A stretch of DNA of 43,017 nt. Source: Myxococcales bacterium (GTDB lineage: Bacteria; Myxococcota_A; Polyangia; Palsa-1104; SHYY01). Position 1 is the stretch's first letter. Every line of letters starts with the position of its first letter. Below, one piece after another: positions 4,503-43,017 of this stretch. Location: assembly GCA_023248875.1 (NCBI GenBank), contig JAHFDT010000004.1, positions 1 through 43,017 of the forward strand. The letters are read 5' to 3'. A program made the translations under genes and the position numbers. Below the pieces are notes generated by a model. That model did no database searches. It was given only the letters and a program-made list of their open reading frames with translations, and had not been told where the DNA came from.

Positions 4503-4535
4503 ATGCTGCCTCAAGTGAACGCCTCGCTGGATCTA
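4503..4535 (+). pseudogene. Stranded original 5' end of the response-regulator gene
   Basis: ATG 4503 opens MLPQVNASLDL, which then runs into the palindromic element and stops at TGA 4545-4547. Deleting 4536-4724 (189 bp, the insertion plus one TA) joins CTA 4533-4535 to GCG 4725 in the frame of the downstream regulator and gives [22 protein letters not shown], a normal receiver N-terminus. I therefore read these eleven codons as the ancestral start of the gene at 4692. No Shine-Dalgarno is visible at ATG 4503. Confidence 0.6.
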
Positions 4536-4724
4536 GCTGGCTGTTGAAAAAGTCGTTTTTAGGCCCGCACAGCGGGCCCGCGGCGAAGTCGCCGCGTGAG
4601 CAGGGGTGAGGCTCCGGCGGCTTTGCCGACGGAGCGGGGCGGCACGCCCCGTTAGATCGACTAGCAGGCGGCAAACAATTTGGGTGTGAAAATGGCTTCA
4701 TCGGAGTTTTTCAACAGCCTGCTA
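4534..4724. mobile_element. MITE-like palindromic element splitting the regulator 5' end
   Basis: Imperfect terminal inverted repeats GCTGGCTGTTGAAAAAGTCG (left, from 4536) and GCAGGCTGTTGAAAAACTCCG (right, reverse complement, ending 4722) are flanked by TA (4534-4535 and 4723-4724), or equivalently by CTAG on both sides. The interior has several strong hairpins (GCGGCGA-AG-TCGCCGC; GCTCCGgCGGC-TTT-GCCGaCGGAGC; GGGGCG-GCA-CGCCCC) and no ORF of note. TGTTGAAAAA-type ends resemble those of known insertion sequences, but the family cannot be fixed without a database search. Confidence 0.7.
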
Positions 4725-10373: not shown

Positions 10374-11483
10374 ATGCGCACGCTGGCGCGCATCCTCTCT
10401 ATTTCCCTCGCAGCAGGCAGCGCGGCCGCGCGTGTGCCCTGCGCCGGCGAAGGGCCACCGATCTACGCCGAACAGGAGGGCTACGGCCTGCCTGAGGCGG
10501 TGGTGCCGACCGCCAGCGCGACGCTCCAACTCACCGGCTATGCCGGCCGCGACACCTCGTTGCGATCAGGAGATCTCACCGCCGGGATGGGCTTCGCACT
10601 CGCGCAGGCGCGCCTCGGCGTATGCGGTGCCCATGACGGTCTGGCCTATCGCCTGATCTATGAGCCGTGGAACCTCATCGAGCGCGCGCGACCCGACGCG
10701 ATGGCCTGGGGACGGCTCTCGGATGCACTGGTCGCCTGGCTGCCCACGGCCCCGGGGGGGGACTGGTCGGCGATTGCGATCGGCGTAGGCAAAGTTCCGT
10801 TTGGCCGCGGCCGAGAACAGCCGAGCGGCGCGCTACCGCTCGCAACGCGACCCTTGGTGATCGAATCCCTGGCACCCGACCGCCGGCTCGGTCTCAGCGG
10901 AGAAGCAGATCTAGGCCTCTTCCGACTGGCGCTCGGCCTCTACGAAGGGGCCCGCCTCCCCAGCATCGATGGACTGGGCGGAGTGCTGGCCGTGGCACAT
11001 GCACAGGTCGAACCGTGGGGACCCGTGGGGCGCCGCTCTACTCCAGAGTATGGCGCCTGGACGGAGCGTCCGCGTTCCACCGTAGGGGCTTCTGCCGCCT
11101 ACCTGTGGCGCGACGGAAAATCCGGCTACGCGCTCGGTGGTGAGCTGGCGTTCGGCTGGAAGCGACTATTTCTCTCGGGTGAGTTTCTCTACGCCGATCT
11201 CTGGCCGCTCGAACGGCCGAGCGAAACCCCCGGCGAGCGAGCTCGGCGGCTCGGCGGCTACCTCGAGGCCTCACTTCGCGTGGTAGGACCCTTTTCGCTG
11301 GCCGTGCGTGGGGAGTACCTCGACGAACAGCGGGGGGACCGTTTTTTCGCGGCGGCAGCGGGTGCCACCTGGCTGCTCATCGGTCCGGCGCTGCAGCTAC
11401 AGGCGATCTACTCGCAGAAGTTCCATCTGGACTCGGCCCGCAACGATGGCGCACTGTTGCTGGCCATCATCGTCGCCCGCTGA
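10374..11483 (+). CDS. Outer-membrane beta-barrel protein, porin O/P-like
   Basis: The 369-aa protein has a likely signal peptide (MRTLARILSISLAAGSAAA) and then alternating hydrophobic/hydrophilic strands ending in a C-terminal LLLAIIVAR strand, as in outer-membrane barrels. Segments such as LQLTGYAGRD, GKVPFGRGREQPS and LGLSGEADLGLFRLALGLYEG resemble phosphate-selective porin O/P family proteins, where a similar GxxxxPFG motif follows the plug region. It probably forms a 14-18-strand pore; solute unknown. ATG 10374 is chosen; no Shine-Dalgarno is visible and the GTGTTAAC array lies immediately upstream. An 11308-start ORF in another frame is a shadow. Confidence 0.65.
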   Translation: MRTLARILSISLAAGSAAARVPCAGEGPPIYAEQEGYGLPEAVVPTASATLQLTGYAGRDTSLRSGDLTAGMGFALAQARLGVCGAHDGLAYRLIYEPWNLIERARPDAMAWGRLSDALVAWLPTAPGGDWSAIAIGVGKVPFGRGREQPSGALPLATRPLVIESLAPDRRLGLSGEADLGLFRLALGLYEGARLPSIDGLGGVLAVAHAQVEPWGPVGRRSTPEYGAWTERPRSTVGASAAYLWRDGKSGYALGGELAFGWKRLFLSGEFLYADLWPLERPSETPGERARRLGGYLEASLRVVGPFSLAVRGEYLDEQRGDRFFAAAAGATWLLIGPALQLQAIYSQKFHLDSARNDGALLLAIIVAR

Positions 11484-11586
11484 CGGCCGTCTCGCCAGGG
11501 CGCTTGCCGCAACCCGTGAGCAGTGTAAAGATAGCCCCCTGAATAAGATCCGCACGCCTGCGTCCAACGGCGTAAAGGAGCATGCG

Positions 11587-12771
11587 ATGAAGCGACTCGG
11601 TTGGCTGAAGCGGCGATCACTTCTCTGGAGACTCTCCTCGCCCGGTGCCGCCGCGCGAAAGCCCTTCGCTCGGCTCCGATCGAGCCGAGCGCTCACCGCT
11701 TGGCTGATCGGCCTGGGCGGCTGCTACGTGGAGACGGTTCCCATCCCGCCGGCTCCGCCTGGGGTGGTGATGGCGCCGCGTCCAGTGTACGGCGCCCCAT
11801 CGTTCGAACTATCGATAGGCCCTGCCCCACCGGTACAGTATCTCGCGCCACCGCCGCCACCACCGCGCTGGGAACCCCGCCCGCCGATCCCCTTCTATGG
11901 CGCGCTCTGGATCGATGGCTACTGGGATTGGCGCGACGATGGCTGGTATTGGATGGAAGGGAGGTGGAGCGCACCGCGTGAGGGGTACGTTTATGCGCCG
12001 CCCTCCTACCAAGTCTTCGGCGGGAGAGTCACCGTGATCCGGCCCCATTGGCGCGTCAGTGGGGCGCCCACGCCCGTCTACGGGGGGGGCGTTCAAATAG
12101 GTCCGCCGCCCCTCGGGTATGGCGGAGGCACAGTCGTCGCCCCGCCACCCCCATGGTATGGCGGAGGCACAGTCGTCGCTCCGCCCCCTCCCGCCTACGG
12201 CGGAGGCACAGTCGTCGCTCCGCCCCCTCCCGCCTACGGCGGAGGAACAGTCGTCGCCCCGCCCCCGCCCGCCTATGGCGGAGGAACAGTCGTCGCTCCG
12301 CCACCGCCCGCCTACGGCGGAGGAACAGTCATCGCCCCGCCTCCTCCCGCCTACGGTGGAGGAACAGTCGTCGCTCCGCCACCGCCCGCCTACGGTGGAC
12401 GGGCGCCGGTCAGCGCGCCACCTCCCGCCTACTACCCCGCTCCCCCGGCTGCGGCACCGGCGCCTCCAACCTATTCTCCAGGAGCTCGTGCAGTGCCACC
12501 GACCTATGTCCCACCGTCGGCCGTGCGCCCGGCGCCTCCTGCCTACGCCCCAACACCATGGGGACCTCCGCCCGCCAACCAGCCCCACCCGACGACCGCC
12601 GCACCGGTCTCCCCACCGCCGCCGGTTGCGGGAGTGCCGCCCTATCGCATGCCCGCTCCCGCACCCATCGCACAACCGATGAGTCCCGGTGCCGGAACGC
12701 CACCACCTCCTGCCATTCCTCGTCGCCCCCCGCCGATCGCTCCCCAAGCCGACCCGCGGCGCGTAAGATAA
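11587..12771 (+). CDS. Pro/Gly-repeat lipoprotein with YxW-type domain
   Basis: The start is ATG 11587 (394 aa), supported by AAAGGAG seven bases upstream; the 487-aa track ORF extends into the porin gene. A long basic N-terminus precedes the hydrophobic segment ALTAWLIGLGGC with a lipobox-like LGGC. Next is an aromatic-rich domain, residues ~95-160 (IDGYWDWRDDGWYWMEGRW and APPSYQVFGG), of the YXWXQ-repeat type found in Myxococcota surface proteins. Seven 13-residue repeats YGGGTVVAPPPPA follow, then a ~120-residue Pro/Ala-rich tail. It is probably an extended, outer-membrane-anchored or periplasmic protein. Most of the C-terminal half should be disordered. Function unknown. Confidence 0.7.
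   Translation: MKRLGWLKRRSLLWRLSSPGAAARKPFARLRSSRALTAWLIGLGGCYVETVPIPPAPPGVVMAPRPVYGAPSFELSIGPAPPVQYLAPPPPPPRWEPRPPIPFYGALWIDGYWDWRDDGWYWMEGRWSAPREGYVYAPPSYQVFGGRVTVIRPHWRVSGAPTPVYGGGVQIGPPPLGYGGGTVVAPPPPWYGGGTVVAPPPPAYGGGTVVAPPPPAYGGGTVVAPPPPAYGGGTVVAPPPPAYGGGTVIAPPPPAYGGGTVVAPPPPAYGGRAPVSAPPPAYYPAPPAAAPAPPTYSPGARAVPPTYVPPSAVRPAPPAYAPTPWGPPPANQPHPTTAAPVSPPPPVAGVPPYRMPAPAPIAQPMSPGAGTPPPPAIPRRPPPIAPQADPRRVR
12118..12390 (+). repeat. Seven 39-bp in-frame coding repeats
   Basis: Seven head-to-tail 39-bp units encode YGGGTVVAPPPP(A/W). Differences are mostly synonymous (GGC/GGA, CCC/CCG/CCT), plus W for A in unit 1 and I for V in unit 6; a degenerate eighth unit follows (YGGRAPVSAPPPA). Synonymous drift argues for an array older than simple recent slippage. 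Confidence 0.9.
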
Positions 12772-12791: not shown

Positions 12792-12870
12792 TAGGGTCTG
12801 TCCTCAAAGTCCTCCCGTCGTCGGGCTCGTTCTCGCCGCGGCTCGGTCCGGACTTTGAGGACAGACCCTA
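12792..12870. mobile_element. Palindromic element, family A, short copy (75 bp between TA pairs)
   Basis: Body 12794-12868 begins GGGTCTGTCCTCAAAGTCC and ends with its exact inverted complement; TA flanks both sides (12792-12793, 12869-12870). Over its whole length it equals the 23941-24101 copy apart from an 82-bp internal deletion between two CTCG sequences. It lies between convergent genes; the right-hand TA plus the terminal G forms the TAG stop of the FHA-sigma-54 gene. The 19-bp stem would fold strongly in RNA and may also terminate transcription. Confidence 0.85.
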
Positions 12871-14262
12871 GTCGCCGTCGCGGCCGGCAGTCAAATTGTG
12901 GCGCTTGAGCAGCTCCCGCAGGTGGTAACGGGTAAGACCCGCCTCCTCCGCGGAGCGCGTAATGTTGCCCTCGTGCCGCTGCAAAAGCTCGCGGAGGTAG
13001 GCGAGCTCGAACGCGTCGATGACCCGCTGCTTGGCCTCTTTGAACTCGAGACCTGGTACCAGATCCGGCAGTGCTGGCGCGGGCGTGCTCGGGGAGCGCG
13101 AGCTCGTCACGGCACCCCCGCGCCCGAGAGCCAACTCGCTACGACCGAGGAGCGCCGAGTCGGATAGCGAGGCCGCACGTTCGACCACATTGCGCAGCTC
13201 GCGCACATTGCCAGGCCAACGATGCGCCTGCATGGCGTGCATCGCTTCGGGAGAAAAGTCGATCGCGCGGCCGAGTTTTTCCGCGATGACGCGCAGGAAG
13301 TGGCGAGCCAGGGCGGGCACATCCTCAGGCCGCTCACGCAGTGATGGCAACTCGACGTGCACCACCGACAGACGGAAATAGAGATCTTCTCGGAAAGTGC
13401 CAGTATTCACCATTTGGCGAAGATCGCGATGGGTCGCCGCCAGCACACGCCCATCGAACTTGAGCACTTTGTCGCCACCGACGCGCTTGAACTCGCGCTG
13501 CTCGAGCACCCGCAAGAGCTTGGGCTGTAGACCCAGATCGAGCTCGCCGATTTCGTCGAGAAAGATAGTGCCCCCCTCGGTTTGCTCGAACAGGCCACGG
13601 TGCTGTCCGACCGCGCCAGTAAACGAGCCCTTCTCGTGGCCGAACAGCGTCGATTCCACCAGATCCTTCGGCACGGCGCCGCAGTCGAGCACCACGAACG
13701 GCCGACTGCGCCGCGGCGAGCCGTTGTGGATGCCGCGCGCGATCACCTCTTTGCCGGTCCCGGTCTCACCGGTGACCAGCACCGTGAGATCCGACGGCGC
13801 CACCTTTTCGAGCACGGCAAAGATCTCGCGCATCTTCGTGCTCGAACCGATCGCCCGGTCGAAACGGTCACGCTCGGACAGAGCGATCTCGACCATCTCC
13901 GTGGTCGGCAAAAGCTTGATCTCGCTGTGGCCGACGCGAAAGGTTCCGCCCGCGCGTAACACGACATCCTTGATCTGCAGATCGCCGACGAAGCTTCCGT
14001 TGGTCGATTCGAGGTCGCGCAGTCGATAGCCCTCCTCACCGGAAAGCAGCTCGAAATGCGTGCCCGAAACCGACTTATCAGTCAGCACGAGGTCGTTGAT
14101 GATGCTACGGCCGCCGCTGACCACTGGCTTCGTGACCTCGAGCTCCAGCCCGCTGTCCGGCCCGGAGATGACCACCAGCTTGGACTTGCGCAGGTGGCGC
14201 ACAGTGGCGCGGTCGGTGACCGCAGTCGGATCAGACTCATCGCCAATCGGTGGGAGATCCAT
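12868..14262 (-). CDS. FHA-domain sigma-54-dependent activator
   Basis: The 464-aa enhancer-binding protein has a forkhead-associated domain (residues ~28-115; GGRSIINDLVL, SVSGTHFEL, LRDLESTNGSFV) instead of a receiver. The AAA+ sigma-54 domain (~135-370) has Walker [15 protein letters not shown] in place of the common GAFTGA, and Walker B GTIFLDE. A Fis-type HTH (~420-460, NITRSAEEAGLTRYHLRELL) follows. FHA activators are abundant in Myxococcota and are thought to be switched by Ser/Thr phosphoproteins, linking Hanks-type kinases to sigma-54 transcription. Start ATG 14262 has a promoter nine bases upstream. Its TAG stop is made by the palindromic element. Confidence 0.93.
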   Translation of the reverse strand: MDLPPIGDESDPTAVTDRATVRHLRKSKLVVISGPDSGLELEVTKPVVSGGRSIINDLVLTDKSVSGTHFELLSGEEGYRLRDLESTNGSFVGDLQIKDVVLRAGGTFRVGHSEIKLLPTTEMVEIALSERDRFDRAIGSSTKMREIFAVLEKVAPSDLTVLVTGETGTGKEVIARGIHNGSPRRSRPFVVLDCGAVPKDLVESTLFGHEKGSFTGAVGQHRGLFEQTEGGTIFLDEIGELDLGLQPKLLRVLEQREFKRVGGDKVLKFDGRVLAATHRDLRQMVNTGTFREDLYFRLSVVHVELPSLRERPEDVPALARHFLRVIAEKLGRAIDFSPEAMHAMQAHRWPGNVRELRNVVERAASLSDSALLGRSELALGRGGAVTSSRSPSTPAPALPDLVPGLEFKEAKQRVIDAFELAYLRELLQRHEGNITRSAEEAGLTRYHLRELLKRHNLTAGRDGD

Positions 14263-17563: not shown

Positions 17564-18855
17564 GAATCTGTGTTTGCATCTGTCTGCTTTGGGGCGCCGC
17601 GGGGGCCGACGAACCGCCGAAAGCGAACCGCGGCCCTGTCGAAATTGAGATCTCCGGCGCCAAACGCGACCTCTACAAGATCGCCGTACCGCGCCTCGTG
17701 GGCGATAGTGCTACCGGCAATCTGGTTGCAGAGGTGGTCTCGTTCGACCTCACGGTATCGGGCTGGTTCAAGGTGCTCGACCCGCGCTCCTTTCTAGCGC
17801 ATCTCGATCAAGAGGGCACCGGAATCGTCGTGCAGGATTGGCGCAACGTGGGCGCCGAAGGCGTTTCCAAGGGGCGCGCCACCGTGCTCGGCGATAGCGT
17901 CGCGCTCGATTTCAAACTCTATGAGCTCGCCCGCGGCGAAAGAGCCGTCCTGGAAAAGGTCTATCAAGGATCCAAATCGCAGGTGCGTTCCTTCGCCCAC
18001 CAGTGGGCCAACGAAGTGGTGCGCCATCTCGCTGGCGAGGAGGGTTTTTTCAACTCGCGCATCGCCTTTGCCTCCGTCACGGGTCCCGGCCGAAAAGATC
18101 TCTTCGTCATGGACTTCGATGGCGCCAATCTGCAGCGCCTCACCAACAATGGTTCCCAGAACATCCTGCCCGCCTGGTCGCCCGATGGCAGCAAGATCGC
18201 GTTTACCTCCTTCATTCGCGGCAATCCTGATCTCTACATGGTCTCGTCCGCCGGCGGTCGACCCAAGCGGATCTCCGATCGTGCCGGTGTCAACATGGGT
18301 GCCGCCTGGTCACCCGATGGCGCGAAGATCGCAGCAACCCTCTCTCAGGATGGCGCGCCGCAGATCTATCTCCTCGGTACCGAGGGTTCGATCGTGAAGA
18401 AGCTGACCGATACCAGCGGGCCCTTCATCAATTCATCGCCCGCCTGGTCGCCCGATGGATCACAACTTGCGTTCGTTTCCAACCGCCACGGCTCGCCGCA
18501 GATCTGGACCCTACCCTCCGGTGGGGGCAACGCCACCAAGCTGACCCGTCTCGGCAACTACAACCAGGAGCCCGCCTGGTGCCCAAGGTGTGCTCAACCG
18601 ACCATCGCCTTTACGGGGCGTGATGAGCAGGCCCATTTCGACTGTTTTCTCATCCGGGTAGGAAGTGGCGAATTGATCCGGCTCACCGAAGCGCAGGGAC
18701 AGAATCAACACCCGAGCTGGGCACCCAACGGCCGCGCGCTGGTCGTGGCCTCGTCGCGCGGCGGCTTGTGGATCACGACGGCCGATGGCAAAACGCAGAA
18801 ACAGATCTACAAAGGATCGGCCGATACACCGACCTGGGGACCGGCGACCAGATAA
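17560..18855 (+). CDS. tolB: Tol-Pal system beta-propeller protein TolB
   Basis: ATG 17560, overlapping the upstream stop as ATGA, begins a signal peptide (MRICVCICLLWGAAGA); the track start 17530 is upstream in the shadow. The 431-aa protein has the TolB N-terminal domain (residues ~25-150) and a beta-propeller of PD40 repeats (~165-425) with repeated AWSPDGSKIAF-type blades. One blade reads AWCPRCAQ where AWSPDG is expected, which introduces a CxxC. TolB is periplasmic and normally binds Pal, but no pal gene follows here. The stop overlaps the next ATG by one base. Confidence 0.92.
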   Translation: MRICVCICLLWGAAGADEPPKANRGPVEIEISGAKRDLYKIAVPRLVGDSATGNLVAEVVSFDLTVSGWFKVLDPRSFLAHLDQEGTGIVVQDWRNVGAEGVSKGRATVLGDSVALDFKLYELARGERAVLEKVYQGSKSQVRSFAHQWANEVVRHLAGEEGFFNSRIAFASVTGPGRKDLFVMDFDGANLQRLTNNGSQNILPAWSPDGSKIAFTSFIRGNPDLYMVSSAGGRPKRISDRAGVNMGAAWSPDGAKIAATLSQDGAPQIYLLGTEGSIVKKLTDTSGPFINSSPAWSPDGSQLAFVSNRHGSPQIWTLPSGGGNATKLTRLGNYNQEPAWCPRCAQPTIAFTGRDEQAHFDCFLIRVGSGELIRLTEAQGQNQHPSWAPNGRALVVASSRGGLWITTADGKTQKQIYKGSADTPTWGPATR

Positions 18856-23550: not shown

Positions 23551-23943
23551 ATGAATCTCTCCCATCGCCTCCTGCCTCTCCTGCTCTTGGCTTGTGGTGC
23601 AACACCCCTGCCTCCGTACGACCTGGGAATGTCGGTGAGCGATCTACCCGGATCGCCCAGCGACGCTTCGGTCGCCGCCCCAGACCTATCGTCGCCCCCG
23701 ATGGATCTCGCTACCAAGCCGGACCTGGTAGGGCTGAAATCGGTCGGCCAGCCCTGCACCAATGACAACCAGTGCCTCCCGGATCTCTCGTGCATCACCC
23801 GCAATAATTTCGTCAATGGGGTGTGCGACAAGTCCAGGACCTGCACGATTCTGTGCATGAAAAGCCAGGAGTGCACCAGCAAGTTTGGTCCCAACTTCCA
23901 CTGCAACCAAGGCTGCGCCTTCAACAACTGCCAGCCGAATTAG
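23551..23943 (+). CDS. Cys-rich lipoprotein ending at a palindromic element
   Basis: The 130-aa protein begins MNLSHRLLPLLLLAC, a lipoprotein signal with lipobox LLLAC. The linker (residues ~20-62) is rich in Asp/Pro/Ser with DLSSPPMDLATKPDL, the same linker style as the lipoproteins near position 1000. The C-terminal domain has eight or more cysteines (GQPCTNDNQC, LSC, GVC, RTC, LCMKSQEC, FHCNQGCAFNNC). The TAG stop is formed by the TA plus first G of the family A palindromic element. Function unknown. Confidence 0.7.
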   Translation: MNLSHRLLPLLLLACGATPLPPYDLGMSVSDLPGSPSDASVAAPDLSSPPMDLATKPDLVGLKSVGQPCTNDNQCLPDLSCITRNNFVNGVCDKSRTCTILCMKSQECTSKFGPNFHCNQGCAFNNCQPN

Positions 23944-24101
23944 GGTCTGTCCTCAAAGTCCTCCCGTCGTCGGGCTCGTTCTCGCCGCGGCTCGCTTTGT
24001 CGCTCCTCGGTTGCCTACCGCCAGTAGGCGCCCTTGTCGCTCCGCGCGATCCGGGCTGCGAACTTCGCCCGACTCGGTCCGGACTTTGAGGACAGACCCT
24101 A
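23941..24101. mobile_element. Palindromic element, family A, long copy (157 bp between TA pairs)
   Basis: Body 23943-24099 has terminal repeats GGGTCTGTCCTCAAAGTCC / GGACTTTGAGGACAGACCC and flanking TA at 23941-23942 and 24100-24101. The interior includes TACCGCCAGTAGGCG-type hairpins and no ORF. It is the long form of the copy at 12792-12870. Both ends make TAG stop codons: the left for the plus-strand lipoprotein, the right (on the minus strand) for the convergent lipoprotein. Confidence 0.88.
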
Positions 24102-24752
24102 GAAATTCTGGTTGTCAAAGCGAAACAGCAGAAAATGCGGTTGCTCGGTCGTCGGACGCACCACCACTGCACCATCGCTGCTCGCACTGTTGCGATGGAT
24201 CTTGTGGCCGCCGTCGGCGCCATAACCGAAAGCAAACACTGAAATCGGCGCATCGAAGGCGAGCTGCGCCAGGATCCTGTCGACCAGGAGGGGCGGCGAG
24301 TAGGGCGTAAACTGATTGGCGTGGAGTTTCAAAGTGGCCACATAGTCGAGGGCTATGTCGGCGGTGTGCCAGCCTTCGCTCCAAGTGCCTCCTGGCAAGG
24401 GCGCGTCGAGCTCGGCCAGGGCGACCTTGGAGTTGAGCGTGAGGGTCGAATCGATGTTGATGAGCAGGCGATAGAAGTTTCCCTTCATCTCCACCTCGAG
24501 GATGAGGTGGTGGCTATTGGGCTGAGCACACTGCTGGTCTTGTGGGCGAACAATCGAGTAGAGCGTCCCATCAAGGCGACCGTAGAGCGCGGTGAGGGCA
24601 TTGCCAAACGAGGAGACACAAGGGTGCGGCGACGCGCGGTCGACGCTGGCATCGAAGCTGCTTGAATCGGCGACCGAATCGATGGGCGAACAGGCGGATG
24701 CCAGCAGGGGCGCGAGAAGCTGAACCGCGGCAGCGCCTAACCCGGAACGGAT
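24099..24752 (-). CDS. Lipoprotein with an apparent AUC start
   Basis: The track ORF begins at GTG 24494, but the frame is open much further upstream and reads (I)RSGLGAAAVQLLAPLLASAC SPIDSVADSSS: a lipoprotein signal and lipobox LASAC. It then continues through CVSSFGNALTALYGRLDGTLYSIV and on to the annotated part. No ATG, GTG or TTG lies in frame at the right place; ATC 24752 would give a 20-residue signal and overlaps the 3' end of pcnB, whose TAG is at 24737-24739, so translational coupling is possible. The product is 217 aa, with beta-rich segments (FYRLLINIDSTLTLNS, FLLFRFDNQNF) and no recognised domain. Its TAG stop comes from the palindromic element. Confidence 0.5.
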   Translation of the reverse strand: MRSGLGAAAVQLLAPLLASACSPIDSVADSSSFDASVDRASPHPCVSSFGNALTALYGRLDGTLYSIVRPQDQQCAQPNSHHLILEVEMKGNFYRLLINIDSTLTLNSKVALAELDAPLPGGTWSEGWHTADIALDYVATLKLHANQFTPYSPPLLVDRILAQLAFDAPISVFAFGYGADGGHKIHRNSASSDGAVVVRPTTEQPHFLLFRFDNQNF

Positions 24753-38040: not shown

Positions 38041-39662
38041 AGGCACCTCTCTTGGCTATGGTAACGCGGGCCCTCGGGCAGGGCCAAATTTTTGGCCAGC
38101 TCTCCCAGCGTCAGAGAAACCATCCGAACCTCACCAGGCCCTCGCAGGGCGATGAAGCGAATCGCTCCATCCCGGCGCTTCTTATCGCTGGCCACGTAGT
38201 CCCAAACCTCCGGGCGAAGCTGGCGGTCCAGCTCCACCGGGAGTCCCAATCGGCCCACCACGGCCCGCAGCCGATCCTCAAATCCCGTGGGGCTGCCGAG
38301 CCGCTCTCCCACGCGCGCCGCAGCGAGCAATCCGAGCGCCACCGCCTCGCCATGCCGCAATTCAGGTGCCGTCCGTTCGAAAGCGTGGCCGAGCGTATGG
38401 CCCAAGTTGAGCAGCCGCCGGCCACCAGTCGGATCGCGCTCCCTCTCGTCCGCTGCGACGATACGGACCTTCGCCTGGACCGCCCGCTCGATCAGCGGTG
38501 CCAGCCCCTCGCCTTCCCGAAGCTGCTCGGCCTCGGCAACCAGTCGTTCCCAGGGCGCTCCACCGACGAGTAGGATCCCCTTGAGCAGCTCGCCAAGCCC
38601 GGAGATCCGGTCGTGTGGTGCCAGGGTGCGGAGCATGGCCGCATCGCAATGAACCCATAGCGGCTGATGAAAGGTTCCCAGCAGGTTTTTTCCCGACGGT
38701 AGATTCACCCCGGTCTTACCGCCGATGGCCGCATCGATCTGCGCCAAGAGCGTGGTGGGAACCGCCACCCAGGCGACACCACGAAACAGCAGCGATGCGA
38801 CCAAGCCCGCCAGATCACACACCGCGCCACCGCCGAGCGCCACGACGATGCCCTCGCGGTCGAGAGAGGTACATAGCGATTCGGCAAGCCGCTCTACTTC
38901 CGCCCAGCGCTTGGCCCACTCCCCCTCGGGCACCAGGGCCACGGTCACGCGAAAGCCGCGCTCTTCTAGCGCTGTGCGGTAGCGTGCCAGATGAAGAGCG
39001 GCAATTCGTTCATCGGTGACGATGGCGACTTGCGCCAGCGGCCGACGAAGTGCCAGTTCGTGCGCAAAGCGCAGCGCGGCACCATCGTGGGGATCGAAGA
39101 GGACTGGGTACCGCGCCTCACCCAGCTCGACCCACGTCGCCCGCGAAGTGAGCCACTCCAAGATCTCGTGCCCCACCGCATCGACCGAACGGCCACGCCG
39201 ATCGAGGACGAAATCGGCCCGGGAGTAACCGGGTGTGCGCTCGGCCAAGAGCCCCCGCCAAAGTGGCCGGTGCAATCGCGCTGGCACCGATGAAAAGAGC
39301 GGCCGGGCGACGCTATCGAAGTCCGCCATCACCTCATCGGGAGAGGCCCGCAACCAAACCACACGGCCGACACGCTGCATCGCAACGATGTTTTCTTCCG
39401 TGGTCGTGCCTCCGCCGGTTGCGATCACCGCATTCGTGCCGACGCGCGCCAGCTCCTCGACCGCTGCCGCTTCACGCTGACGAAAAGCCGCTTCGCCATC
39501 ATCGGCAAACTGCTCGGCGAGCGACCGACCGACACGCTCCTCGATCCTGCGATCGAGATCGCAAAACGGCCAGCTGAGCGCATCGGCCAGCCAGCGCCCG
39601 AGCGTGCTCTTGCCCACCCCCGCCGCTCCTACGAGCCACAGGATTTCCTGGTTAAAATGCAA
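38037..39662 (-). CDS. aroKB: Shikimate kinase-3-dehydroquinate synthase fusion
   Basis: One 541-aa protein joins two enzymes of chorismate synthesis. Residues ~1-165 are shikimate kinase (Walker A LVGAAGVGKST, DLDRRIEERVGRSL, GEAAFRQREA, ATGGGTT). Residues ~175-541 are dehydroquinate synthase (VALGGGAVCDLAGL, VPTTLLAQIDAAIGGKTGVN, GKNLLGTFHQP, LNLGHTLGHAFE). The two catalyse non-adjacent steps. ATG 39737 would overlap aroC by 86 nt and add a non-homologous N-terminus. TTG 39662 puts the Walker A loop at the expected distance and gives an 11-nt overlap, so I prefer it; the start is uncertain. Shikimate kinase/DHQS fusions are known in some bacteria. Confidence 0.9.
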   Translation of the reverse strand: MHFNQEILWLVGAAGVGKSTLGRWLADALSWPFCDLDRRIEERVGRSLAEQFADDGEAAFRQREAAAVEELARVGTNAVIATGGGTTTEENIVAMQRVGRVVWLRASPDEVMADFDSVARPLFSSVPARLHRPLWRGLLAERTPGYSRADFVLDRRGRSVDAVGHEILEWLTSRATWVELGEARYPVLFDPHDGAALRFAHELALRRPLAQVAIVTDERIAALHLARYRTALEERGFRVTVALVPEGEWAKRWAEVERLAESLCTSLDREGIVVALGGGAVCDLAGLVASLLFRGVAWVAVPTTLLAQIDAAIGGKTGVNLPSGKNLLGTFHQPLWVHCDAAMLRTLAPHDRISGLGELLKGILLVGGAPWERLVAEAEQLREGEGLAPLIERAVQAKVRIVAADERERDPTGGRRLLNLGHTLGHAFERTAPELRHGEAVALGLLAAARVGERLGSPTGFEDRLRAVVGRLGLPVELDRQLRPEVWDYVASDKKRRDGAIRFIALRGPGEVRMVSLTLGELAKNLALPEGPRYHSQERCL

Positions 39663-40797
39663 GCGACTCGCGCAGAGGAAGCACACGCGCCTCCAGCTCG
39701 GCCATGGTGGCACCTCCCGTGCGCTCCAGCAGGGCATCGGCCAACACTAGTGCCACCGCGGCTTCCGCGACCACGGCCGCCGCGGGCACTGCACAGCAGT
39801 CGGTCCGCTCCTTGTGCGCCAGCACCGCTTCGCCGCTCACCAAATCGACCGAGGGCAGCGGCCGCCCCAGCGTCGGCAGCGGCTTCATCGCCGCGCGCAC
39901 CACCAGGGGCTCGCCATTCGACAGTCCGCCCTCGATACCACCGGCGCGATTGGTCGGACGCGCGAATCGATCTCCTTGCCGCACGAGGGCATCGTGCACC
40001 TCCGAGCCGCGTGCTGCAGTGGCCGCAAATCCCAGGCCCACCTCGATCCCCTTGACGGCCGGAATCGCCATCAGCGCCTCGGCCAGCCGCGCGTCGAGCC
40101 TCCCCGTCGGGGTCGCATGGCTGCCGAGCCCCGGCACCATGCCCCACGCCACCACCTCGACCACGCCACCGAGACTATCGCCCTGGGCCTGCGCCGTCTC
40201 GATCGCTGGTACCATCTCAGCGCTGGTTGCCCGATCCGCACAGCCCACCTCGCTCGCGAGCACCCGCGCGCGTATTTCGGCCCCATCACCGTGGAGCGGT
40301 GGGGCTCGCACATTCCCGATTTGGACCACATGCCCGAGTAGCTCTATCCCGCAACGCGCGAGCATGAGCTGCACCACCGCTCCTGCCGCCACCTGCACCG
40401 CCGTCCCGCGCGCACTCGCACGCTCGGCAATCTCGCGGGCATCACGCAGTCCAAATTTGATCGCACCGGCGAAATCGACATGGCCCGGCCGGGGCCGAGT
40501 GATCGCCACCGCTTCGGTAGGCGGCGCAAAGGGGTCCATCGAGTCGCGCCAAAAATCGCGGTTGCGCACCAGCAGCGCCAGGGGCGAACCGATCGTTCGG
40601 CCGCCCCGCAACCCTGCCAGAACCTCGACCCGGTCCTCTTCGATCTTCATCCGCCCGCTACGCCCCACACCCCGCTGCCGCCGCTCGAGCGCCCGATCGA
40701 TCGCCTCGCGCGCTACTTCGAGCCCCTGCGGAAGGCCCTCCAGAATGGCCACGAGCGCAGGGCCATGTGACTCACCGGCCGTCGTCAACTTCAACAT
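39652..40797 (-). CDS. aroC: Chorismate synthase
   Basis: The 381-aa FMN-dependent enzyme makes chorismate from EPSP. Seen: N-terminal LTTAGESHGPALVAILEGLP, RRQRGVGRSGRMKIEED, the RPRPGHVDFAGAIKFGLRDAREIAERASAR signature, and GIEGGLSNGEPLVVRAAMKPLPT near the C-terminus. Length is standard. ATG 40797 is clear. Its 5' leader is now the palindromic element: without the insertion, the pilQ stop and aroC ATG would be separated by only 3 nt (TAG CAG ATG). Expression from pilQ read-through must cross a long inverted repeat. Confidence 0.96.
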   Translation of the reverse strand: MLKLTTAGESHGPALVAILEGLPQGLEVAREAIDRALERRQRGVGRSGRMKIEEDRVEVLAGLRGGRTIGSPLALLVRNRDFWRDSMDPFAPPTEAVAITRPRPGHVDFAGAIKFGLRDAREIAERASARGTAVQVAAGAVVQLMLARCGIELLGHVVQIGNVRAPPLHGDGAEIRARVLASEVGCADRATSAEMVPAIETAQAQGDSLGGVVEVVAWGMVPGLGSHATPTGRLDARLAEALMAIPAVKGIEVGLGFAATAARGSEVHDALVRQGDRFARPTNRAGGIEGGLSNGEPLVVRAAMKPLPTLGRPLPSVDLVSGEAVLAHKERTDCCAVPAAAVVAEAAVALVLADALLERTGGATMAELEARVLPLRESLAF

Positions 40798-40801
40798 CTG
40801 C

Positions 40802-41007
40802 TAGACCGCTTTCAGGTCAAATTGAGCGACTGCGGCGATCCCCTCTGCCTCGGCCGCAGACGTCCTCGGACCGGGGGACCCCGATCTCTTCGGCGAGTGC
40901 TTCGTCTCTTCTCCTTGGATTACTGCTAGTAGTCCTGCGTCGTCGCTCCTCGCCTCACCTCGATCTGGTCCGCCTCGTTCGCTCACGTTTAACCTGAAAG
41001 CGGTCTA
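40802..41007. mobile_element. Palindromic element, family B, between pilQ and aroC
   Basis: Body 40804-41005 (202 bp) has terminal repeats GACCGCTTTCAGGTCAAA (left) and GACCGCTTTCAGGTTAAA (right, reverse complement), with TGAGCG continuing both arms, and flanking TA at 40802-40803 and 41006-41007. No ORF of note is inside. The TA plus G on the right makes the TAG stop of pilQ on the minus strand. It shares only short fragments such as GTCGCTCCTCG with family A. Confidence 0.85.
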
Positions 41008-43017
41008 ACGACGAAGCGCGGTCGCTCGATTGACGATCCGCGGCGTGATGAAGATGAGCAGCTCCGTACGGTTGTCCGATTCCGTCTTATTCTTGAACAA
41101 CCAACCCAGAATAGGGATGTCCCCGAGAAACGGGATCTTCCGTTGATTCGCGCTGGTAGTGCGCTGATAAATTCCGCCGATGACCGCGGTATCGCCGTCG
41201 GCTACCAGCATCTCCGTCTTGGCCACCTTGCGGGAAATGCCCGGCGTCCCACCGGTGGTCTGCACCGACTGGTCGGGCTGGTTCTTCGTGACGTTGACGA
41301 CCATCATGATGCTGCCATCGTTGGTCACATGGGGCTTGACAGTCAAACTCAAGTTCGCATCCACGAACGTAGTCTGGGGCCCGAGTGCGCTGACGACCGT
41401 GATCGGTATTGCAGTGCCCGACAGGATCGAGGCTTCGACATTATCCAACGTGGTGATCTTGGGAGCCGATAGAATCCGGATATTGCCCGTGCTCTCCTCG
41501 GCACTCAGACGCAGGTTCAAATTATAGTTCCCGGTGAGCGAACCGAGGTTCAGCCCGACCACGCCTGACCCACCGGGCAGATTCACCACGTAGTTGGGCG
41601 ACCCCGACAGCCCCACAATGTCCGTGGCCGCTCCACCCGCGGCTCCCGCAATTCCAATCGTCGAGGGAAAGCCTATCCCCGTGGGATTTCCGGTGGCTGC
41701 CGAAGCGATTCCACCGCCTCCCCACTGGATGCCTAGCCCCCGCGAAAATTTGCTATCGGCTTCGACGATTCTAGCTTCGATGAGCACCTCGGGCGTCGGC
41801 GTGTCGAGGCTGCGCACCAGCTCTTCGGCATTCTTGATATTGCCCGGCAGGTCGGAGACGATCAGCGTGTTGGTCCGATCGTCGACGGAGATACGCGCCC
41901 AGCCCGATAGGACGTCTTGAACGCGCGGAATGATCTTGGTCGCTTCGGCGTAGGAGACCGGGATGAGGCGCGTGATCGGCGGCTGCAGTTGCACCATGTG
42001 CTCGCGCCGCGAAATCTCCTGCTCGAGCTCCTTCTCTAGCACCCCCTGAGGCGCCACCCGGATCAGATTGCGCTCGCGCACCATGCCGAGCCCTTTGGCG
42101 CGCAGGATCACCTCGAGCGCCTGATCCCACGGTACGTCGCGCATACGGATGGTGACAGCGCCTTTCACATCATCGGTGGTCACGATATTGACCTGTCCGA
42201 CATCGGAAATGAGACGCAGCAGGTTATGGATATCGGCGTCCTTGAAATCGAGGTCCATCCGCCGTCCGGCATACTTCTTCATCGAACCGACGAGCGGTCG
42301 TGACTGCACCATCGAAGAGTCGCCCGCAGGGGGGCCAGGCGCCGTTGGTGGCGGACTCGCCGGCTGCTGTGGCGGCTGGGGTGGGCCCTTGGGCGGCTCG
42401 GCCACCTGCAGCGGCAGTGTGTTCAGCCCAAATCCGGCCACCTTGGCCGGTGGGAAGGAGCCACTCGAGGCCACTGCCTTCGGAAAGCGCCAGACGATCT
42501 TCGTCTCTGGCTTTGCCCCGTGTCGACGGCGAGTCGGCTCCATCTTGAGCTCCGGTTCGGTCGCCGCCGCCAGCTGCGCCACCAGCCGCACCGCGCCTGG
42601 CTGCTCGGGATCGAGGTAGGCCGAGACCGAAGTGACCGGCCCGTGAAAAGCCGTGGTATCGAGCGTGCGCGCCAACTGTTTCGGCAGTACAGCCCCTTTG
42701 AACTGCAACGAAGCGCGTGGCTGCCCCGGTTCCATCGCCAGTTTCGTGATCTCCGGCTGACCGCGCACCAGGATCTCGACCCGAGCCGCGTGGGTGCTGT
42801 CACGAAATTGGACATCCAAGATCTCGACCACCGGCTTCGTGGGTTGCTCGACAAACACCGCCTGAGCCGGTTTCGTGGGGGGGTCCGAAGCCGCCGGCTT
42901 CGGCGCCAAGACGGACGGCTTTACCGACTCCTTCGCTACGCCATGGGCGACCGGCTTCTCGACCGTCGGCTTGGCCACCGCGCTCACTGCCGACTTGACC
43001 AGATCCTTCTGGATCGG
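41005..43017 (-). CDS. pilQ: Type IV pilus secretin PilQ (N-terminus outside window)
   Basis: The frame is open to the window edge (first visible residues PIQKDLVKSA), so the GTG 42987 track start is not the true start; 670 residues are visible. In order: a Pro/Lys-rich region, an AMIN-like domain (~60-145, VVEILDVQFRDSTHAARVEILVRG), a Pro-rich linker, the STN/N0 domain (MDLDFKDADIHNLLRLISDVGQVNIV), an N1 domain (PVSYAEATKIIPRVQDVL...DDRTNTLIVSD) and the secretin barrel domain (VADGDTAVIGGIYQ, IPFLGDIPILGWLF). The dodecameric outer-membrane channel lets the pilus pass. Its TAG stop is created by the palindromic element. pilMNOP are expected upstream of the window. Confidence 0.95.
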   Translation of the reverse strand, partial: PIQKDLVKSAVSAVAKPTVEKPVAHGVAKESVKPSVLAPKPAASDPPTKPAQAVFVEQPTKPVVEILDVQFRDSTHAARVEILVRGQPEITKLAMEPGQPRASLQFKGAVLPKQLARTLDTTAFHGPVTSVSAYLDPEQPGAVRLVAQLAAATEPELKMEPTRRRHGAKPETKIVWRFPKAVASSGSFPPAKVAGFGLNTLPLQVAEPPKGPPQPPQQPASPPPTAPGPPAGDSSMVQSRPLVGSMKKYAGRRMDLDFKDADIHNLLRLISDVGQVNIVTTDDVKGAVTIRMRDVPWDQALEVILRAKGLGMVRERNLIRVAPQGVLEKELEQEISRREHMVQLQPPITRLIPVSYAEATKIIPRVQDVLSGWARISVDDRTNTLIVSDLPGNIKNAEELVRSLDTPTPEVLIEARIVEADSKFSRGLGIQWGGGGIASAATGNPTGIGFPSTIGIAGAAGGAATDIVGLSGSPNYVVNLPGGSGVVGLNLGSLTGNYNLNLRLSAEESTGNIRILSAPKITTLDNVEASILSGTAIPITVVSALGPQTTFVDANLSLTVKPHVTNDGSIMMVVNVTKNQPDQSVQTTGGTPGISRKVAKTEMLVADGDTAVIGGIYQRTTSANQRKIPFLGDIPILGWLFKNKTESDNRTELLIFITPRIVNRATALRR

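Follow-up and report, generated by a model that had tools for sequence, protein, structure and literature searches.

The stop codon of pilQ in this Myxococcales genome carries an insertion which we interpret, at a probability of roughly 88%, as a palindromic, non-autonomous MITE that inserts at TA and has rebuilt the stop as TAG, a habit that its relatives follow throughout the genome. What we observed comprises the copy number, the ends, the target, element-free junctions, the preservation of stop codons and their enrichment, the absence from gene interiors, and the concerted ends. A TA-targeting transposase would move the element in trans, and the element would have entered the TA of a Y-TA-R target which was the pilQ stop codon. 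As both ends begin with G, TA plus G remakes TAG on either strand and pilQ keeps its stop and its protein. This property of the ends may have let the family settle in stop codons throughout a gene-dense genome.

The window (the whole stretch of 43,017 nucleotides that was analysed) has pilQ (secretin, 41005-42987) upstream of aroC (chorismate synthase, 39652-40797), both on the minus strand and both confirmed by Pfam to be the genes named in the preliminary description. The element lies between them at 40802-41007, without strand assignment and with both TA copies included; its 202 bp body, the TA brackets and the inverted ends agree with that description. The left terminal repeat (40802-40821, plus strand, TAGACCGCTTTCAGGTCAAA) and the right one (40988-41007, minus strand, where it reads TAGACCGCTTTCAGGTTAAA) are complementary at 19 of 20 positions, and the first and the last TA represent the target duplication. 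The interior holds an optional palindromic module of 42 bp (TCCCCTCTGCC..GGGGGACC, 40839-40880, plus strand) and a conserved core (40899-40951) in which a hairpin is found between two direct copies of TCGTCKCTYCTC; this central hairpin (GGATTAC..GTAGTCC) occupies 40917-40935 on the plus strand. The core is also on the plus strand and is thus antisense to pilQ-aroC. The pilQ stop codon (TAG, 41005-41007, minus strand) takes its TA from the target and its G from the element. When the body and one TA are removed, the joined flanks read CGT CGT TAG CAG ATG, as had been proposed, so that the empty site would have the same TAG and the end of the PilQ protein is unaltered by the insertion. Among 3659 TA-bounded pairs in the window (spacing 100-400 nt), three match at 17 or more of 20 positions, and each of these resembles the repeat of a mobile element.

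The whole element folds into one long hairpin (z -6.6 and -6.5 for its two strands). Such a strong fold on both strands could also be expected if the spacer were a conserved cis-acting RNA, either a leader or an attenuator of aroC, with no insertion at all, and the central hairpin varies by compensatory changes, with compensation at three pairs. At one pair a T.G wobble is kept in 52 of the 53 unique cores, so that one strand of this hairpin pairs better than the other. However, the orthologous junctions do not share this spacer. The element is absent from the junction in five relatives (G001, G002, G003, G004 and G006), whose pilQ-aroC spacings are 7, 2, 0, 18 and 6 nt, respectively, with start codons read by eye; these junctions come from other genera or families, not from a sister strain. 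The spacing is 39 nt in G014, and the spacer of about 150 nt in G008 has no match to the element. In addition, the same sequence occurs at more than 30 unrelated loci, and a search of Rfam gave no match up to E=1. Because five relatives have only 0-18 nt and no element, we conclude that this is an insertion and not a conserved RNA leader, an alternative that we regard as highly improbable since these junctions already contradict it. The comparison with related junctions, which the preliminary description had suggested, thus bears out its view that the two genes were formerly only a few nt apart.

The source genome is a draft of 4.0 Mb in 304 contigs with a completeness of 88%. It contains 71 matches to the element sequence and about 64 to the terminal 20-mer, compared to a single one for the reversed control pattern, and the search for these ends (termed family B) therefore identifies a multi-copy inserted element. 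At least 33 distinct intact copies have both flanks. The standard copy has 162-163 bp and sizes range from 162 to 228 bp, except for a copy of 359 bp with a nested insert. In this copy (L041, 1501-1859; contig C50 of the source genome, G000, 18429-18787) a small mobile element, flanked by a 9-bp repeat (ACTGCTAGT), splits the family B copy right in its central hairpin. The ends of the family are 20-22 bp long and no transposase gene is found inside the copies. The 42-bp module is missing from the standard copies; it is common to the window copy and several others, and is placed in inverted orientation at the opposite end in subfamily 2. A second optional module has about 22 bp. With short size, multiple copies, terminal inverted repeats, a TA at both ends with element-free junctions in relatives, no gene and a hairpin that spans the whole element, family B is a MITE. 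The copies in the genome have ends of two types, TAGACCGCTTTCAGGTTRAA with its variants and TAGACCGACCTCACGTTAAG. Copies of subfamily 2 are 100% identical while occupying different sites, which points to recent movement. The assembly is broken by these repeats, as five contigs (C15, C28, C48, C194 and C72 of G000) terminate in an element copy or close to one, and more copies may be hidden in this way.

The target of the family is well defined. A pyrimidine precedes TA in 33 of 36 copies and a purine follows it in 33 of 35. While the element itself nearly always starts with G, its neighbours beyond TA may be C or T on the left and G or A on the right, irrespective of that first base, and the duplication thus consists of TA alone. 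With a Y-TA-R target and a G as the first base of the element, both junctions read TAG, which is a stop codon on either strand in the frame where TA opens the codon. For all stop-codon copies of which both flanks are available, joining these flanks gives an empty site whose reading frame ends at the same codon and gains no residue. In one case (L024, contig C103) a single copy provides the stop for two convergent genes. The preliminary description had placed the insertion exactly at the pilQ stop; this position is right, but it is nothing special to pilQ-aroC and is typical of the family, 20 of 33 copies being found in a surviving stop codon, 13 in intergenic regions and none inside genes.

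For comparison, 694 YTAR sites were counted in 433 kb of the genome, of which 389 are inside genes, 220 are intergenic and 85 are in stop codons. Even among the 305 non-disrupting sites, only 28% are in stops, which is significantly below the fraction for the copies (binomial p 8.5e-5, Fisher 2.1e-4). This null depends on the calling of genes, which was done with a home-made gene caller with starts chosen by coding score, applied in the same way to the 433 kb and to the empty sites. In a first pass of gene calling six copies had appeared to be inside genes, but these cases are really due to 5′ over-extension or to convergent overlaps; over-extended calls were removed via the score-chosen starts, and the null was treated identically.

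With gene interiors already excluded, this excess could come from an active preference of the transposase, or of its complex, for sites of translation termination. We consider this rather unlikely, since selection against hits near promoters and 5′ ends would yield the same excess and the Y-TA-R target by itself overlaps TAG and TAA stops. Furthermore, elements of family A in the same genome are not clearly enriched in stop codons (6 of 13, p 0.12). Selection that removes insertions at other sites is the simpler view and probably accounts for the enrichment. Family A elements (TAGGGTCTGTCCTCAAAGTCC ends) are found in the window at 12792-12870 and 23941-24101, and they begin with TAG, too. The former supplies the stop of a sigma-54 activator gene (12868-14262), the latter that of a minus-strand ORF (24099-24494) and, in addition, the stop of a possible ORF (23551-23943). 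The window has yet another inverted repeat between TA dinucleotides (4534-4724, CTAGCTGGCTGTTGAAAAAGTC ends, 18/20), the third of this kind, which is probably from another MITE family. There is also a tandem 39-bp repeat (12064-12453, seven overlapping copies of 156 nt) within ORF 11308-12771.

Of 22 bases, 0.55 differ between the two ends of one family B copy and 4.0 between the ends of different copies. The ends thus evolve in concert, as might be expected from fold-back correction within the palindrome or from strict matching by the transposase. The inner part of the element is kept in G001 and G002, which belong to a sister genus, with about 90% identity (z 23-38 compared to shuffled sequences), and there the same core is found inside completely different ends (TAGGAGCCTGTT..). 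Among 84,980 species, a set in which the source genome itself is not displayed, the exact core pattern occurs in G001 and G002 only. A shared core with the distant class members G252, G253 and G010 had been considered, but the similarity is not significant overall. The 161-bp copy of family A shows a weaker resemblance to family B, in the same register (z 4.3). The preliminary description had spoken of a different family, which is only partly right: in the sister genus the core of family B recurs under other ends, and family A weakly resembles it. We speculate, tentatively, that the core is the true selfish unit, swapping terminal repeats for different transposases while fold-back keeps the ends identical, and that ends beginning with G make it a stop-codon specialist in a protein-silent niche of compact genomes.

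At pilQ-aroC, the mRNA would carry a long spacer with a hairpin in place of the short stop-to-start spacing. Before the insertion, aroC started 3 nt after the pilQ stop, while it now starts 4 nt past a spacer that forms a hairpin of -97 kcal/mol. Because of this replacement, translational coupling is likely to be reduced. The ribosome-binding match at the end of the element is slightly better than before (-3.9 vs -1.5 kcal/mol). In the direction of the operon no intrinsic terminator was found, the single terminator-like hit being on the strand opposite to pilQ-aroC, and no intrinsic promoter was found in the element. An outward TTGACC had been pointed out in the left repeat. It is present, but it is not supported as a promoter: a -10 region would fall inside aroC, where none is found, and the ends of other copies differ and lack TTGACC. 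With the short spacing lost and the hairpin gained, an effect on the expression of pilQ-aroC is plausible, and the coupling of pilus and chorismate genes may have changed, as the preliminary description had proposed.

The element may alternatively have been co-opted as a signal for RNA processing or polarity. The C-rich core (C exceeds G, 72 vs 52, on the core strand) would then act in sense orientation as a Rho-type or RNase signal, and only antisense copies would be tolerated inside operons. Stop-codon copies of subfamily 1 are indeed antisense to the stopped gene in a ratio of 12:1, the ratio is 13:3 for subfamily 1 copies in tandem gene pairs where the downstream gene follows closely, and for ERIC an orientation-dependent effect on mRNA has been published (PMC2229807, PMC3049150). 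However, subfamily 2 has the opposite bias (5 sense, 1 antisense) and the bias is not reproduced in G001 and G002 (5 antisense, 3 sense), so that it does not hold as a rule of the family. As the proposal was also made post hoc, we consider such co-option improbable, though less so than active targeting of stop codons.

The insertion at TA and the preference for CTAG/YTAR, which are known for IS630/Tc1-mariner elements, are found in family B. An autonomous relative would be expected to have ends such as GACCGCTTTCA or GACCGACCTCA. A transposase with family B ends was found neither in the source genome nor in 11 others (searched for PF13358, PF01609 and PF13359), which is not decisive as draft assemblies break at repeats. 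DDE_3 fragments in the source genome have ends that differ from those of family B, and no DDE_3 was found in G001, G002, G010, G252 and G253. Family B probably depends on a transposase that targets TA, and the TA duplication, the Y-TA-R target and the architecture point to the IS630/Tc1-mariner type as the most likely one. An IS630-type element with other ends (AAAGCAGAGTTCATTT) adjoins a subfamily 2 copy (L122, 1-376, contig C167 of G000; also L119). The genomes of G252 and G253 (4-5 Mb; e.g. L101-L111) have about 130-150 matches to the ends (TAGACCGCTTTCAAGTTGAC) of another MITE family, and neither a DDE_3 nor a DDE_Tnp_4 transposase was found in them.

For a transposon that multiplies where free sites are few, this suggests a testable rule: choose TA and begin with G. 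Every hit in a TAG or TAA stop then leaves the protein intact, also where two convergent genes are hit together, and the element can spread through a crowded genome without breaking proteins. An element located exactly at a stop codon is no evidence of gene fusion or of regulation. Concerted ends and a core with swapped ends bear on how MITEs switch the transposase on which they depend. In the literature searched, which was limited in extent, we did not meet a G-first rule of exactly this form together with a measurement of the enrichment, and a review of prokaryotic MITEs from 2024 (PMC10969869) says nothing about stop codons.

The nearest known kinds of elements are ERIC, RUP and BOX. ERIC/IRU from enterobacteria is a palindrome of about 127 bp with TA termini that occurs between co-transcribed genes and forms one long stem-loop (PMC2229807). 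In architecture it resembles family B in all these respects, but its terminal repeats are listed as much shorter (7 bp). RUP from Streptococcus pneumoniae is a small TA-targeting MITE with ends matched to those of the IS630-type element IS630-Spn1 (PMC2229807). For family B, a parent IS that shares its ends was looked for and not found, and the hosts also differ, these being GC-rich relatives of Myxococcales MAGs. According to a title cited in PMC2170065 (Tenzen and Ohtsubo 1991), IS630 duplicates TA and prefers TA within CTAG; it is autonomous while family B is not, and the likeness is in the TA target. The closest precedent for repeats that supply stop codons is the modular BOX element of S. 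pneumoniae. Of its 58 overlaps with genes, 36 lie at the very 3′ end, where the repeat itself encodes the stop and truncation is not evident (PMC3049150). BOX differs from family B in sequence and family, and in family B the stop is rebuilt exactly, from the TA of the target and the first base of the element.
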